From: a virus
Reading direction: 5' to 3' (one strand)
Virus record (IMG/VR): IMGVR_UViG_3300031337_000266
Location: 1-23,996 of that record
Length of the DNA: 23,996 nt
The notes beneath the pieces were generated by a model. It searched no databases. It was not told the DNA's origin and saw only the letters and a list, made by a program, of their open reading frames with translations. Of this stretch, positions 6,319 through 21,420 are shown one piece after another (position 1 is the first letter of the stretch; each line of letters starts with the position of its first letter). The translations under genes and the position numbers were made by a program.

Positions 6319-6978
6319 ATGGCTAAAAAGAAAGAAAAAAATAATATTAATGTTGGTACATTCTATGATAATTTTTGGAAACAAAAAATAAAAACCAAAG
6401 ATAATATTATCATATCCCCTACAGAGTTTTTCAAGAATTGGATACATGCGCAGTTATTTCCAAAACAAATGATACCAGTTGAAAAAACATTTTCCAATGG
6501 CTATAAATCACTATCAACTAATATTAATGAACTTGTAATAGGATTTGGAAAAAGATGTTTAGCAGGAAGTGTAAAACTTAGAGATGAGGAAACAAAAAGA
6601 GAATATACTATAAAAGAACTATCAGAAAATAAGAAGGCAATATTGGTAAAAGGAGTTAAGATAATAGGACGTAGCAATAAAGGTAACCCCAAAGGAAGGG
6701 TTGTTACTCAAAAAACAGGAATACCATTTTATAAAGGAAAATCAAAAATATATAGGGTAAAGACAAAATCAGGAAAGGAAATATTGGTTGGAGAGCATCA
6801 TAGGTTTTTGTCTAAAGATGGATGGAAAGAAATAAAAGACTTAAAGGTTAAGGAAAAGATTATGGTATCCAAAGCTCCAAATGAATCATTATCAGAAGAG
6901 CGAGAAAAACAAAGAAAATATAAAATTAGCAAAAGAATGAAATTTAATCCACCAAAACATTTAAAGAAGGTAAATTAA
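6319..6978 (+). CDS. terL: TerL N-fragment fused to the N-half of a split intein
   Basis: Residues 1-79 are the N-terminus of the large terminase: PTEFFKNWIHAQLFPKQ is the usual entry to the ATPase domain, and it ends in VIGFGKR, the first half of Walker A. Residue Cys80 (codon 6556) begins an intein. Block A is CLAGSVKL; a block B region follows at ~155-178 (GKEILVGEHHRFLS, then DGWKEIKDLK). No endonuclease motif is visible, and the frame stops at TAA 6976-6978 with no block F or G. The rest of the intein and of TerL is in the next frame, one base later. The block B Thr of the usual TxxH is Gly here. There is no clear Shine-Dalgarno before this ATG; translation may be coupled to the upstream stop at 6317. 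A deletion of T6976 would fuse the two frames, so a frameshifted cis-intein is the main alternative. Confidence 0.8.
   Translation: MAKKKEKNNINVGTFYDNFWKQKIKTKDNIIISPTEFFKNWIHAQLFPKQMIPVEKTFSNGYKSLSTNINELVIGFGKRCLAGSVKLRDEETKREYTIKELSENKKAILVKGVKIIGRSNKGNPKGRVVTQKTGIPFYKGKSKIYRVKTKSGKEILVGEHHRFLSKDGWKEIKDLKVKEKIMVSKAPNESLSEEREKQRKYKISKRMKFNPPKHLKKVN
6556..6975 (+). other. N-half of the TerL Walker A intein
   Basis: This is a 140-residue N-intein, from Cys80 to Asn219 of the upstream TerL frame. It carries the nucleophilic Cys1 and blocks A and B. The last ~38 residues are a highly charged, mostly basic tail. By count the half has about 40 Lys/Arg against 16 Asp/Glu. It is longer than the roughly 100-residue N-inteins of the DnaE family, which suggests remnants of a linker region. 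Confidence 0.75.
6964..6970 (+). promoter_or_regulatory. Ribosome binding site of the second TerL frame
   Basis: The purine-rich run AAGAAGG lies 9 bases before the ATG at 6980 and inside the end of the upstream frame. It supports independent initiation of the C-fragment. It is weaker proof than it looks, because Lys/Glu-rich coding sequence in this phage is purine-rich anyway. Confidence 0.5.
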
Positions 6979-6979
6979 A

Positions 6980-7093
6980 ATGTTAGCATGGGATGAGATA
7001 ACGGAAATAGAATGTATTGGCGAAGATGATATTTATGATTTGGAAGTTCCAGAAACAAATACTTATATCGCACAAGGATTTGTTAATCATAAT
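6980..7093 (+). other. C-half of the TerL Walker A intein
   Basis: Residues 1-38 carry block F (IYDLEVPETNTYIAQG) and block G (FVNHN), followed by Ser39 as the +1 nucleophile. The length is close to the 35-36 residues of known DnaE C-inteins. It contains ten Asp/Glu and no Lys/Arg. The block F His is replaced by Asn (T-N-T-Y). The penultimate His and the terminal Asn needed for Asn cyclisation are kept. Confidence 0.8.
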
Positions 7094-9787
7094 TCTGGAA
7101 AAGATTTTTTAATATCAAACCTATTAACATATATAGTTTACTATCTTTTAAAACAACCAGACCCATCAGAGTTTTTAGGTCTTAAATCAAGAGAACCAAT
7201 AGATATTGTAAATGTTAGTTTTGATGAAACACAAGCGAAAACAGTATTTTTTGAGAGATTTAAGAATAGGATAAAAAATTGTATAAACCCTATAACTAAA
7301 AAGAACTTCTTTGAAGAACAAGGGATGGATTTAAGTAGAGATATACAAAAAAATAGTATAATATTTCCAAAGAATATAACAGCATACTCTCTTAACAGCG
7401 TCAAATTTAAAGCTGAAGGAAAAAACGTTGTGTTTGCCGTCTTTGATGAAATAGCACAGTTTAGATTTGACAAAGCAGAGGCAATTAGAAGGCATATTAA
7501 AACTACCGCTAAAGCAACATGTCCAAAATTCTTTAAATTATTCTATATTAGTTTTTTGACGAACGGCAGTGATTATATGGCTCATTTATTAGAAAAAGCA
7601 GAAAAAGGAGAAATACCAAAATGTTTATATATGAGAGAATCTACATGGAGTGTTAGGAGCCAACGAGGTTGTCCTAAAGAATTAAAACCTTATATTGTAA
7701 ATCGCTCTACATTTCAAGATGAATTTGATGAGGATCAGGAAAACGCAATGTTGATGTTTGAATGTAAGATTCCTAAAACTAGAGGTAGTAGTTTTATAAA
7801 AAGACCAGAAAAAATATTACAATCTGTGGGATATATTTTAGACCAAAATGGCGAAAAAATATTTCGAGAAGATCCTAGAGTAAACCAAGAAAATATAATA
7901 GTGTATGATGATGAGTTGAAAGATTTAGAATTTGAGTCTTGGTTTAAACCATATTATACTTGGGAAATTTGGCAATTAGAAAAACAATATGAAATACAAC
8001 CGTCAGAATCATTGGAGCGCCAAATGATTCAATTAAAAGAACGCCAACAAACAGCAGAGTATTATATCCATATCGATTTATCTCGTGGAGTTGTAGATAG
8101 CGCAGGTATTGGTTTGGCGCACAGATATTATATAATGGACAGAGTAAAAATATATATAGACTTATTATTGGCTATAAGAGCAAGAAAAGGACAAGAAATA
8201 GACATGTCCAAGATATTGGATTTTATATTACTTAGACTGCATAAAGGCAAAGTATCTTTGGGTGGCCTTGGATTCCATATACATAAAATAACATCGGATG
8301 GTTGGAACAGCTCATTATTTTTAAATTTATGTGAGCGTGAAAATATAGACTCACAGTTAATAAGTTTAGAGCGTACAACAGCACCATATAATACATTCAA
8401 GGATTTTATATATAAGCAGGATATAAATTATTATCCTTACGCTCCATTACTCAGGGAAGTCGAGGAGCTTATAATAACAGATAAAGGTAAAATAAACCAT
8501 CCAAGAACAAGTCGGCGTAGAATGAAAGAAGAAGGGTTGTCAAGGGGGTCGAAAGATACTTGTTTTACAGGAGATACAAAAATACTACTGGTTGACGGGA
8601 GAGAATTATCAATTAAAGAATTAGTAGAGGAGCAAAAGAATGGCAAACAAAACTATATTTATTCTATTGATAATAAAAAAGAAAAAATAATGGCGAAGAA
8701 AATAGACTGTGTTTTTCAATCTGGTATTGAAAACAAATTTATAGAAATTAAATTAGATAATAATGAAATAGTCAAATGTACCTTAAATCATCCTTTTATG
8801 ATAAGGGATGGGGGCTATAAAAGAGCCGATAATTTAAAAGTAGGTGATTCTTTAATGCCACTATATAGAAAAATAAATAATTCTTATTTAAAGGGATATA
8901 GAGAAATTTATAATCCTTTTGAAAATAAATGGCATTATGAACATAGAGAATTTTCGAAAGCTATAAATAATCAAAAATTTGTTGTTCATCATAAAGATTA
9001 TAATAAGTTAAACAATAACCCAAATAATTTACAGATAATGTCTCTTAGCGCACATGCAAAATTACATGGATTATTGGCAACAAAAGAAAAATTAGACAAG
9101 ATGCACAAAGCGGCACATTTATTCAATATTTCTGTAGAGGGCAGAAGAAAGCACTCAGAAGCATTAAAGAAAACATGTAGATTAATAAAAGAAGGAAAAA
9201 TAAAACATACCAGTTGGAATCAGAGAGATGATTTTAAAGGATATAAAGACCAAAGAATGAAAAAATTTATAATGGCTGGAGCAAACGCAAGAAGAGGGGC
9301 AAGTAATTGGTGTAAAGGGCTTAAAGTTGAAACCAATCTTTCATTGCAAAAATTAATGTTGCATAGTTCAATAACAAAATTAGGATTTGATATTACAAAA
9401 TATAGAGAATATATAATTAATAAATATTTAAATGAGAATGTGTCCCCAAGACAAATAGGGGCTATACTGGGATGTAGCGGAGATACAATTAGAAAACGAA
9501 TAAAGAAATGGGGCGTTTTTAATAAAGAACAATCCAATAAAATACATAGGTTGAATATAATTAAAGCGAAGAAATTTAAAAATCATAAAATAAAGGAAAT
9601 AAGAATAATTGATACCGAAAAACAACCAATTTATGATATGATAATTGAGGATACCCATAATTTTGCGATTAGCGCTGGGGTATTTGTTCATAACTCAGAT
9701 TGTTGCGCCGGACTCTGTGATTCAATGACACAAGACAGTGAAGAGGGCGATATGGCGTGGAGTAGCGATAATGAGGAGAAAGAATAA
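6980..9787 (+). CDS. terL: TerL C-fragment with C-intein half and internal HNH intein
   Basis: This 935-aa frame starts with a 38-residue C-intein, then Ser39-Gly-Lys-Asp. Joining VIGFGKR to SGKDFL gives a terminase-type Walker A of the form G-K-R-S-G-K-D. Walker B is VVFAVFDE (Asp156, Glu157). The RNase H-like nuclease begins with HIDLS (Asp366) and continues with SDGW (Asp440). The third nuclease motif, SKDT-SDCCAG, is interrupted by a second intein (Cys528-Asn905), with Asp907 the likely third catalytic acid. After removal of both inteins, mature TerL would be 79 + 489 + 30 = 598 aa, a normal size. It cuts and pumps phage DNA through the portal. Its stop overlaps the next gene (TAATG). Neither frame alone could give a working ATPase. 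Confidence 0.9.
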   Translation: MLAWDEITEIECIGEDDIYDLEVPETNTYIAQGFVNHNSGKDFLISNLLTYIVYYLLKQPDPSEFLGLKSREPIDIVNVSFDETQAKTVFFERFKNRIKNCINPITKKNFFEEQGMDLSRDIQKNSIIFPKNITAYSLNSVKFKAEGKNVVFAVFDEIAQFRFDKAEAIRRHIKTTAKATCPKFFKLFYISFLTNGSDYMAHLLEKAEKGEIPKCLYMRESTWSVRSQRGCPKELKPYIVNRSTFQDEFDEDQENAMLMFECKIPKTRGSSFIKRPEKILQSVGYILDQNGEKIFREDPRVNQENIIVYDDELKDLEFESWFKPYYTWEIWQLEKQYEIQPSESLERQMIQLKERQQTAEYYIHIDLSRGVVDSAGIGLAHRYYIMDRVKIYIDLLLAIRARKGQEIDMSKILDFILLRLHKGKVSLGGLGFHIHKITSDGWNSSLFLNLCERENIDSQLISLERTTAPYNTFKDFIYKQDINYYPYAPLLREVEELIITDKGKINHPRTSRRRMKEEGLSRGSKDTCFTGDTKILLVDGRELSIKELVEEQKNGKQNYIYSIDNKKEKIMAKKIDCVFQSGIENKFIEIKLDNNEIVKCTLNHPFMIRDGGYKRADNLKVGDSLMPLYRKINNSYLKGYREIYNPFENKWHYEHREFSKAINNQKFVVHHKDYNKLNNNPNNLQIMSLSAHAKLHGLLATKEKLDKMHKAAHLFNISVEGRRKHSEALKKTCRLIKEGKIKHTSWNQRDDFKGYKDQRMKKFIMAGANARRGASNWCKGLKVETNLSLQKLMLHSSITKLGFDITKYREYIINKYLNENVSPRQIGAILGCSGDTIRKRIKKWGVFNKEQSNKIHRLNIIKAKKFKNHKIKEIRIIDTEKQPIYDMIIEDTHNFAISAGVFVHNSDCCAGLCDSMTQDSEEGDMAWSSDNEEKE
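8561..9694 (+). other. Intein with HNH homing endonuclease in the TerL nuclease motif
   Basis: The element is 378 residues, Cys528 to Asn905 of the second TerL frame, with Ser906 at +1. Block A is CFTGDTKILL, block B contains TLNH followed by PFMIRDGGY, block F is IYDMIIEDTHNF and block G ends FVHN. All the usual splicing residues are present. The middle encodes an HNH nuclease: HHKDYNKLNNNPNNLQ at ~670-685 and AHAKLH just after. A helix-turn-helix (RQIGAILGCSGDTIRKRI) lies near 824-841 and probably helps in target binding. The insertion point is between SKDT and SDCC, next to the third nuclease acid. This is an apparently intact, mobile, cis-splicing intein. Confidence 0.88.
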
Positions 9788-10791: not shown

Positions 10792-11033
10792 TTTATTTCC
10801 TCATAATGTTCTGCTTCGCCAGTTACATTCTGCTTTTTTGGGTATATTCCTCCAATTGCTAAAAATTGTTTTTCTTTCTCACTATATATATTTTTATAAG
10901 CAAGTATTTCATAGTTATCATAACCTGCTTTCCAAATTTTATACATTTCCCAACTTTGTTTGGATAAATCATTTAACTTATTCTTTAATTCGAAAGTATG
11001 GATATTTATTTCGTGTAACCATTCTTTTATCAT
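10788..11033 (-). CDS. Small hypothetical protein
   Basis: This 81-aa protein starts MIKEWLHEINIHT. A Met seven codons upstream is possible, but the chosen ATG has GAGGG 8 bases before it and sits just after the stop of the upstream gene. The sequence is helical and charged at first (FELKNKLNDLSKQSWEMYKI) and contains no motif I recognise. It is coupled by ATGA to the zinc-finger gene downstream. A role in the same small operon is all that the context supports. Confidence 0.6.
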   Translation of the reverse strand: MIKEWLHEINIHTFELKNKLNDLSKQSWEMYKIWKAGYDNYEILAYKNIYSEKEKQFLAIGGIYPKKQNVTGEAEHYEEIK

Positions 11034-11034
11034 T

Positions 11035-11295
11035 TTAGCTTCCCTCTTTTTCAACTACACTATAAAATTTAATATATTTAGTGCTATGAAGATTAACATA
11101 AGTAGATGTATTTACTATAGGGGCATTTCCTCGTTTCTTATCCTTCTTTATTAATTTTTTAGAAATTAGTTTGCCTATTGCCCCGATATACTCTTTGCCC
11201 AATTCTTTTGTTATTGCATCAATTGTTGCATCCTTTACATTCTTTTTAATGAAATCGTAAAGTTTTTGTTCTTTTTCGGATAATATATTTTGCAC
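11035..11295 (-). CDS. Small winged-helix-like protein
   Basis: This 86-aa frame starts with GTG; a strong AGGAGG lies 4 bases upstream. Residues 5-60 follow the pattern of a winged helix: LSEKEQKLYDFIKKN, then TIDAITKELG, then YIGAIGKLISKKLIKKD as a recognition helix and wing. A small transcriptional regulator or DNA-binding accessory is plausible. It has one base between its stop and the next gene's ATG. The fold is inferred from pattern, not confirmed by a profile. Confidence 0.6.
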   Translation of the reverse strand: MQNILSEKEQKLYDFIKKNVKDATIDAITKELGKEYIGAIGKLISKKLIKKDKKRGNAPIVNTSTYVNLHSTKYIKFYSVVEKEGS

Positions 11296-19140: not shown

Positions 19141-19883
19141 AATTTATTTAGTAAATAATCAGAACGTTTTATTTTCCCTAATATTCGTCTATAATTATTA
19201 GTATACAAACTTATTTTAGGTTTTAGTACAAACCCTTCCAAAAACATATCGTTTCCGTTTTCTTTTGCTACAACAGATTTAGGATATGTTTTGAAAAGCA
19301 AATCATATGCTTCCTCAAAAGTAGGGAAAGAATTTAATACACATAAGCGAGGAACAACCTTTAAACCAAGTTCTCTACAAACCTTATTTCTATCATCAGA
19401 TGATAACCAAGAATTGCCTATTCTAATATCAAAAACTCTAATATCTCTTTCGCCTTTAGATAAATAATTCTGCTTTTGAATCCCGTAACCATAGCACTCA
19501 GCAAATATAGTTATTTCGGGAAATTCGGTTCTCTCTTCTTTATCTTTTGGATTTGGAGTCTGAACAAAATTCTTTATATACCAATCTTTTATCTGCGCAA
19601 AATCTATCACTTCATCAATTGTTTGTCTAATATAATTATTATCTTTATAATCGGGTTGATTTGAAATCTCGTGTTGCCTGCCAAAATATCTATAATTAAT
19701 TCCGTCATTAAAATCATAGTTTATTTTTAAACTAGAGTTTGTTCCATCAATTTTTTCCTCAACAATAATGCTCTTTATCAAATTCAATGCTTGTATAGTA
19801 TGACTAGAATTGACCATTGGAGTAACATTTCTTTTGCCTGATTCCTCTCTTTTAAATATTGTGTAGATTTTCGGATAAAGCAT
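19137..19883 (-). CDS. Rnl2-type RNA ligase
   Basis: This 248-aa nucleotidyltransferase probably seals nicks in RNA. The motifs run in order: EEKIDGTNS with the adenylated Lys44 (motif I), IFAECYGYG with Glu129 (III), RVFDIRIGN (IIIa), EGFVLKPK at 216-223 (IV) and GKIKR with Lys237/Lys239 (V). It lacks the longer C-terminal domain of T4 Rnl2, so it is at the short end of the family. The ATG has AAAGGAG upstream and overlaps the end of the methyltransferase gene by 32 bases. Phage RNA ligases usually repair tRNAs cut by host anticodon nucleases together with a polynucleotide kinase, which is not seen here. Confidence 0.85.
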   Translation of the reverse strand: MLYPKIYTIFKREESGKRNVTPMVNSSHTIQALNLIKSIIVEEKIDGTNSSLKINYDFNDGINYRYFGRQHEISNQPDYKDNNYIRQTIDEVIDFAQIKDWYIKNFVQTPNPKDKEERTEFPEITIFAECYGYGIQKQNYLSKGERDIRVFDIRIGNSWLSSDDRNKVCRELGLKVVPRLCVLNSFPTFEEAYDLLFKTYPKSVVAKENGNDMFLEGFVLKPKISLYTNNYRRILGKIKRSDYLLNKL

Positions 19884-21420
19884 TTTTTACTCCTTTTATT
19901 CTCTGTTCTATTATAGCAATAGTACAATGCTGACTGCCAGAATGTCCAAATACACACAATTCCTGTTTTTCAAATCCTCTTACTTTTCCTAAAAATGTTG
20001 AGTGGTATCCAAGACTAATTACAATACCTTTAGGTTTTAAAATTCTTGGTAATTCATCAGCGATTAGTTTAAATTTGCTGGTATAGTTTCCTTTATACAT
20101 TTCAATAGATTTTCTATATGAATTCCCACACCAACAAGGCTTCCCGTTTCTTCTTATATAAATAATATGATTCGGGACTTCCACACAATATATTTTATCA
20201 TTATAGTCTATTTTTCTAATATATTTACCTATTTTCTTTTTTCTAATTAAGGGAAATCTTCTCTTTCTTGATAAATTGATTACATAACAACGTCCATGAT
20301 TTCCATTTATTTGTTGATTATAACACCGATAACCACACTTAAAAGCTATTTCCGACACATCATCTGCTAATTGTTTAGATGTAGTAGCATAACTTTTATG
20401 AGAATCCATATAATATCTTTTATACTTTTTGTTATATATATTTTTTCTACTTTGATGCCCATCGCCCAACATTAAACCTTCTAATAAAAATCCCAGTTGT
20501 TTCATAGATAAATTTTTTATATCTTTTGGAATAAATTTATCATTTGTCTTGCCAAATTGTTTTAAATAACTCCATAATTGTTTATTGTAAATAGAATATC
20601 CGTTTTTTTCTATATTATAATTATACCCTAAATCGTTTAACCATGATTGAATAATAATTCTATTTGGTTTTTTTGTTTGAGCAATTCTAATGCGATAATC
20701 TGTACCTTTAGTATCAACACATCCCTCCGCTAAATATAATCCTAAAAATCTTAAAAAATTAACCATTTTTATTTTTTTTGGTTTAGCATACATCTGATTA
20801 TATCTATTGTGTCGCACAAAAGAAACTTTTGGTAAAGTGAAGTATGTTTTATTCTCCCCTTTCCATTTACAATCAGTTTTAAAATTACAACCAAAATTTA
20901 ATTGTTGGGCTTCTATTAATTTAAAAACATTAGTTTTCCAATTTTTTCTGATATATAAATTATGATTTGGGGTTATCATTAAATCAATAGTTCCAGAAGC
21001 GATTTGTATCATTTTTCCTTTATATTTTTGGTTAATATAATTGGTTGGCTTTTGATATTCTAAATAGTTAGTCTTCGGATTTAATGTAGCCACTTTTTCA
21101 TTTCTCTCTAAATCTTTAAACAATTTCCAACCATTTTCAGTTAAAATTTCAGTATTTTTATCGTAGCAATATGGAGGGTCTAGTGTTATAGTATCAAACT
21201 TCTTACCGTCCCATTCTTTTACAAATACTAAAGCATCTTTGTGATATTCAGCCACCGCTTCATCATCTATGTCATTTCTAATTTCATTTAGATCTAATAG
21301 GGTTGTGCCTGCAAATAAATTTAAAACTAAACCCTTACTCCTATTTTCAACCCATTTCTTTATCTTTGGGCTTTCAAAAGTATATCGTCTTAAATTAGTA
21401 CTAATATATGTTAATTTCAT
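19852..21420 (-). CDS. DNA methyltransferase interrupted by an intein
   Basis: The host protein is a class I DNA amino-methyltransferase. The N-extein (residues 1-84) has motif I LVLNLFAGTT at ~31-40 and ends with LDPPY, the catalytic motif IV. The C-extein (434-522) begins SYRKSIEMYKG and includes a GIVISLGYHST strand. Mature size is about 173 aa, small but usual for phage enzymes. A 349-residue intein splits it directly after DPPY. Splicing must occur before the active site is complete. The start is a plain ATG with an AT-rich leader. The gene ends 32 bases inside the RNA ligase. It is the second methyltransferase in the window. Confidence 0.85.
   Translation of the reverse strand: MKLTYISTNLRRYTFESPKIKKWVENRSKGLVLNLFAGTTLLDLNEIRNDIDDEAVAEYHKDALVFVKEWDGKKFDTITLDPPYCYDKNTEILTENGWKLFKDLERNEKVATLNPKTNYLEYQKPTNYINQKYKGKMIQIASGTIDLMITPNHNLYIRKNWKTNVFKLIEAQQLNFGCNFKTDCKWKGENKTYFTLPKVSFVRHNRYNQMYAKPKKIKMVNFLRFLGLYLAEGCVDTKGTDYRIRIAQTKKPNRIIIQSWLNDLGYNYNIEKNGYSIYNKQLWSYLKQFGKTNDKFIPKDIKNLSMKQLGFLLEGLMLGDGHQSRKNIYNKKYKRYYMDSHKSYATTSKQLADDVSEIAFKCGYRCYNQQINGNHGRCYVINLSRKRRFPLIRKKKIGKYIRKIDYNDKIYCVEVPNHIIYIRRNGKPCWCGNSYRKSIEMYKGNYTSKFKLIADELPRILKPKGIVISLGYHSTFLGKVRGFEKQELCVFGHSGSQHCTIAIIEQRIKGVKNALSENLHNI
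20122..21168 (-). other. LAGLIDADG intein in the methyltransferase DPPY motif
   Basis: The intein spans Cys85 to Asn433, with Ser434 at +1. Block A is CYDKNTEILT and block B has TPNH. The endonuclease has two LAGLIDADG motifs, LGLYLAEGCV at ~226 and LEGLMLGDGH at ~313, so it is probably an active monomeric enzyme. The C-terminus is unusual: block G ends WCGN with Gly instead of the penultimate His, and the block F Asp is Cys412 (IYCVEVPNH). Ser at +1 and Cys at position 1 are kept. Such GN endings occur in some known inteins. Confidence 0.85.

Follow-up and report, generated by a model that had tools for sequence, protein, structure and literature searches.

A putative natural split intein, without an endonuclease, interrupting Walker A of a viral large terminase

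Results

How is a packaging ATPase made when the reading frame of its gene is broken inside the ATP-binding loop? The question is raised by an IMG/VR virus contig (record IMGVR_UViG_3300031337_000266) of 23,996 bases, the whole of which is referred to here as the window. Two open reading frames (ORFs) on its plus strand, ORF1 (6319-6978, 219 amino acids) and ORF2 (6980-9787, 935 amino acids), jointly encode the large terminase subunit, TerL, and the point where the frames meet lies in an intein that interrupts the Walker A motif (GKR | SGKD). Our reading, to which we assign a probability of roughly 0.85, is that this loop holds a naturally split intein free of an endonuclease and that the two polypeptides are joined by trans-splicing.

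ORF1 begins with the TerL N-extein (6319-6555, 79 amino acids), which ends in GFGKR, the first half of Walker A. Cys80 (codon 6556-6558) directly follows and is the first residue of a basic N-terminal intein part (IntN; 6556-6975, 140 amino acids) that carries block A, block B (VGEHHRF, 6787-6807) and, at its very end, a NUMOD3-like tail. ORF2 opens with its own ATG and an acidic C-terminal intein part of 38 residues (IntC; 6980-7093), which contains block F (YDLEVPETNTYIA) and ends in VNHN at base 7093. The SGKD that follows supplies the second half of Walker A and starts the C-extein (7094-8560). The N and C parts of the intein are thus each joined to their own extein in separate ORFs, the arrangement of a naturally split intein. 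Pfam Intein_splicing matches residues 87-194 of ORF1 (E 1.5e-8, slightly below the curated cut-off). The PHROG TerL family phrog_17415 matches residues 5-168 of ORF2 (E 6e-19) and, weakly, residues 67-184 of ORF1 (E 0.02), and Streptomyces phage terminases are distant matches to the C-extein (E 1e-22). This homology, together with the Walker A sequence rebuilt as GKR-SGKD, identifies the host protein as a large terminase. The best phage match for IntN, LR756500, was set aside, as its intein lies in a ThyX-like (thymidylate synthase) gene and not in TerL. A preliminary description of this locus, made from the letters of the window, had proposed a TerL Walker A interrupted by an intein with Cys80 and blocks A and B, and a 38-residue IntC with block F and VNHN before SGKD; the ORFs and the Pfam and PHROG matches bear it out in full.

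Cys1, the block B His, the terminal His-Asn and Ser+1 are all present. The Thr of the block B TxxH motif, which is usual but no absolute requirement, is replaced by Gly in the window and in its nearest relative, L003, and by Ser in the related loci L008, L009, L014 and L019. Since block B lacks this residue, splicing may be slow.

The junction itself is compact. The TAA that ends ORF1 (6976-6978) is separated by one base from the ATG at 6980, and a Shine-Dalgarno-like AAGAAGG (6964-6970) stands 9 nucleotides (nt) upstream of that ATG, in agreement with the arrangement first proposed. Because a stop at 6971-6973 closes the downstream frame, the overlap of the frames is no longer than about 3 nt and coincides with the IntC ATG.

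One alternative is that a one-base assembly or sequencing error has broken a gene which in reality runs through uninterrupted, with a mini-intein that keeps a short endonuclease leftover. The break is read from a contig assembly, changing one base close to the junction would unite the frames, and the nearest relative is continuous: in L003 (contig 3300031653_000001), TerL is 88% identical and runs as one 765-residue frame through a continuous mini-intein, with 80% identity to ORF1 over its N part and 88% to the C-extein. The DNA alignment, however, shows that the window is 37 nt longer than L003 at 6940-6976 (placement ambiguous by a few A). The Shine-Dalgarno-like sequence lies within this stretch (KFNPPKHLKKVN), as does the first base of the ORF1 stop. 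The difference between the two contigs is therefore a 37-nt insertion or deletion and not a single base. The IntC ATG exists in L003 as an internal Met codon. Elsewhere no frame break separates the two contigs over about 5,200 aligned residues (about 15 kb of coding DNA), an argument against widespread assembly errors. There is no long homopolymer at the junction, and the Shine-Dalgarno sequence is a good one with its 9-nt spacing. An error would also have to fall within about 7 nt of the roughly 3,400 in terL, precisely at the residue where IntC begins in six other contigs. The preliminary description had allowed that one extra base would explain the pattern and had named a continuous relative as one finding that would refute a split. 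A one-base change would indeed join the frames and a continuous relative does exist, but that relative lacks the entire 37-nt stretch and the six other contigs are split at the same residue, so we regard an error of this kind as unlikely.

A profile built from IntC and the leading TerL residues yielded 41 viral loci and then, with more members, 52. The same P-loop split was found in L008 (=L004), L009, L010, L014, L015 and L019, from six metagenome accessions, and in each of them IntC starts at its own homologous Met/ATG. Because IntC of all six begins at that residue, the position of the break in the window is more than chance. ORF1 overlaps the IntC frame by 4 nt (ATGA) in five of the contigs and by 14 nt in L019. 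Going beyond what had first been described, the first ORF of these relatives ends in a homing endonuclease that the window lacks. In L008, L009, L010, L014 and L015 it consists of TerL-N, IntN and an endonuclease of the PD-(D/E)XK type, assigned to Phage_endo_I in L008 and to PHROG resolvase/endonuclease families in L014, while the N half of L019 carries an HNH endonuclease instead. The break in the window accordingly stands where relatives carry an endonuclease, and a natural split at the endonuclease position, as originally suggested, is supported as the best reading.

The 37-nt stretch is possibly a remnant of such an endonuclease region, although the comparison is suggestive only. The last 12 residues of ORF1 in the window resemble the NUMOD3-like WNTGKHLAK of L008 with a shuffle p of 0.0085, the best of four comparisons; resemblance to the endonuclease regions of L009, L014 and L019 is weak (p 0.15-0.73).

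The relatives also bear on whether programmed ribosomal frameshifting or stop readthrough could yield a single TerL from which the intein splices in cis. The short distances between the frames, a 1-nt gap in the window and overlaps of 4-23 nt in relatives, would suit such a mechanism. The window, however, would need a +1 shift and the ATGA forms a -1 shift, and the ATG at the IntC start is retained in all members. Programmed frameshifting was rejected, as the junctions (GTA AAT TAA, GTA TTA TGA, GTT CTA TGA and AAA TTA TGA) share no slippery heptamer, and we consider this explanation very improbable.

Both intein halves are under purifying selection. Compared with L003, the ratio of nonsynonymous to synonymous substitution rates (dN/dS) is 0.125 for IntN and 0.064 for IntC, within the extein range (0.145 for the N-extein and 0.086 for the C-extein), with dS of 0.8-1.1. 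Such strong constraint on both halves is difficult to reconcile with the view that the phage is defective, the intein a broken, degenerate allele and TerL not rebuilt. Loss of the endonuclease and of the block B Thr would fit decay; the remaining splice-site residues are all in place, the adjacent genes are intact, and we give this possibility hardly any credence.

The two halves carry opposite charges, as expected for a trans-splicing pair. Net charge in the window is +16 for IntN (103-residue core) and -10 for IntC (last 36 residues). The IntN-minus-IntC difference lies between 16 and 29 in every split member and in the fused inteins related to them, against -11 to +9 in nine continuous inteins at the same TerL site. 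In inteins split at this position, the accepted first event is that the oppositely charged halves capture each other electrostatically (PMC11923092).

Joined, the halves are predicted to adopt a HINT fold, as judged on the fused homologue L003 and not on the window pair itself. The L003 model was built with a 13-row alignment, replacing a low-confidence model from three sequences, and reached a predicted local distance difference test score (pLDDT) of 75.5. It matches DnaB, RecA, gp41-1, NrdJ-1 and DnaE inteins, with Z scores of 15.4 for NpuDnaB (best), 13.0 for NrdJ-1 and 12.5 for gp41-1.

On the intein tree, the window groups with L003, L008, L009, L014, L015, L011, L016 and L019 (support 94/95). 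The first residue of IntC is Met in all nine members, including the continuous mini-inteins L003, L011 and L016, and is not Met in inteins outside the clade. The three fused mini-inteins do not form one clade (approximately unbiased test, p 8.6e-5), and the continuous mini-inteins of this group have more than one origin. An unrooted count gives four changes on the tree and by itself no direction. L011 resembles an L014 (87-90% identical) that has lost the 548 nt between two CTATGA repeats, of which one is located at the IntC start; such a loss removes the endonuclease and joins the frames.

The split element and its endonuclease have also moved recently between terL genes, as homing predicts, because the inteins of L009 (4865-6114) and L015 (2443-3692) are 99.9% identical over 1,019 nt inside clearly different exteins (88.7% identical for the N part and 78.3% for the C part).

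Discussion

Under a natural split, the large terminase would be made as two polypeptides from one bicistronic stretch. After the ORF1 stop the ribosome would start, or restart, at the next ATG, aided by AAGAAGG, and produce IntC with the rest of TerL. The basic IntN and the acidic IntC would attract each other and fold into one HINT domain, which would excise itself by means of Cys1, the terminal His-Asn and Ser+1 and ligate GKR to SGKD, restoring Walker A in the packaging ATPase. In ancestry, the intein would have been a mobile split element with a homing endonuclease on its N half. The phage of the window would have lost the endonuclease by deletion while retaining the split, and a further (or different) deletion would have re-fused both halves in L003. 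We infer the translational coupling, the trans-splicing and this order of loss and fusion from the comparisons above.

Several considerations weigh against this account. The nearest relative is continuous, and the frame break in the window rests on one assembled contig sequence. The sequences compared for charge owe their common pattern to descent and are not independent points, so that the permutation value for it is no clean probability. L009 and L010 are near copies, and several forks inside the intein clade are unresolved. In L008 (=L004) the TerL frame is broken a second time, towards the C terminus (10877-11224), a break that is unexplained and either an assembly error or real. The slow splicing that the block B substitution may entail belongs here as well.

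With the Met at the start of IntC and the segregated charges both retained, the fused mini-inteins look like re-fused split inteins. Because homologous endonucleases occur in the split L008, L009, L014 and L015 and the Met appears to be a relic, the direction is read as split to fused, and we infer that endonuclease loss re-fused the split forms. We therefore lean, with less assurance than for the split itself, towards reversible splitting: the mobile ancestor would have been split with its endonuclease on IntN, L003, L011-L013 and L016 would have been re-fused two or three times by endonuclease deletion, and the window would be a still-split intermediate. If true, this runs opposite to the usual view, in which split inteins derive from continuous mini-inteins.

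In the fractured genes with split inteins of Dassa et al. 2009 (gp41-1, NrdJ-1 and IMPDH-1), a free-standing endonuclease ORF reportedly lies between the halves. Members of the TerL clade differ in having overlapping ORFs and an endonuclease fused to IntN, and the window, with no endonuclease and only 1 nt between its ORFs, does not belong to that type. The separate-ORF arrangement was also seen in L077 (4127-6969) and L078 (3266-6537), where an IntN ORF, a free endonuclease ORF and an IntC ORF occur in genes that look like DNA polymerase and helicase. The Npu and Ssp DnaE inteins share the typical split site, the oppositely charged halves and the HINT fold. Their halves lie far apart in the genome and are not known to have a linked endonuclease, whereas those of the window lie in one bicistronic stretch. 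AceL-TerL and GOS-TerL are likewise naturally split inteins in the terminase large subunit from metagenomes, but they are atypical, with an IntN of 25-37 amino acids (PMC11766414). With an IntN of 140 and an IntC of 38 amino acids, the window is split at the typical position and falls outside the atypical class; its break point thus differs from the near-N-terminal one of AceL-TerL, as had been noted from the start. The PolB gene of phage MIJ3 is also split by an intein and has an endonuclease in the locus, the differences being another host gene and an HNH endonuclease encoded by a separate ORF (PMC6892783).

If the proposed reading is correct, an essential phage motor would work only once two proteins have been joined across the loop with which it binds ATP. 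In the TerL family the split intein is seen as a mobile element, with the endonuclease on one half, moving between phages. Related split and fused forms of one intein make the origin and reversal of splitting directly testable, and split inteins with a basic N and an acidic C half are offered for protein ligation.

The same P-loop hosts other arrangements. In L024, L056, L057 and L059 the split precedes the endonuclease, which is TnsA-like and fused to IntC; Cys1 is replaced by Ser or Gly in these inteins, and block F of L056 and L059 contains a Cys, a feature of class 3 inteins. L017, L020, L021, L025 and others hold ordinary continuous inteins with an endonuclease-sized insert. Additional inteins occur at other TerL sites in L011 (a second intein, at DGYQ|SVDM) and L020, for which reason the TerL gene is called an intein hot spot. 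Within the window, ORF2 continues past the C-extein into a second, continuous TerL intein with an HNH endonuclease (8561-9694). Its insertion site, KDT|SDCC, is close to the TerL C terminus; the intein is not in L003, and a homologous intein occupies the same site in L016. A third intein, of the LAGLIDADG type, lies on the minus strand (19852-21420), where it interrupts a DNA methyltransferase at its DPPY motif; the methyltransferase of the relative is without it.
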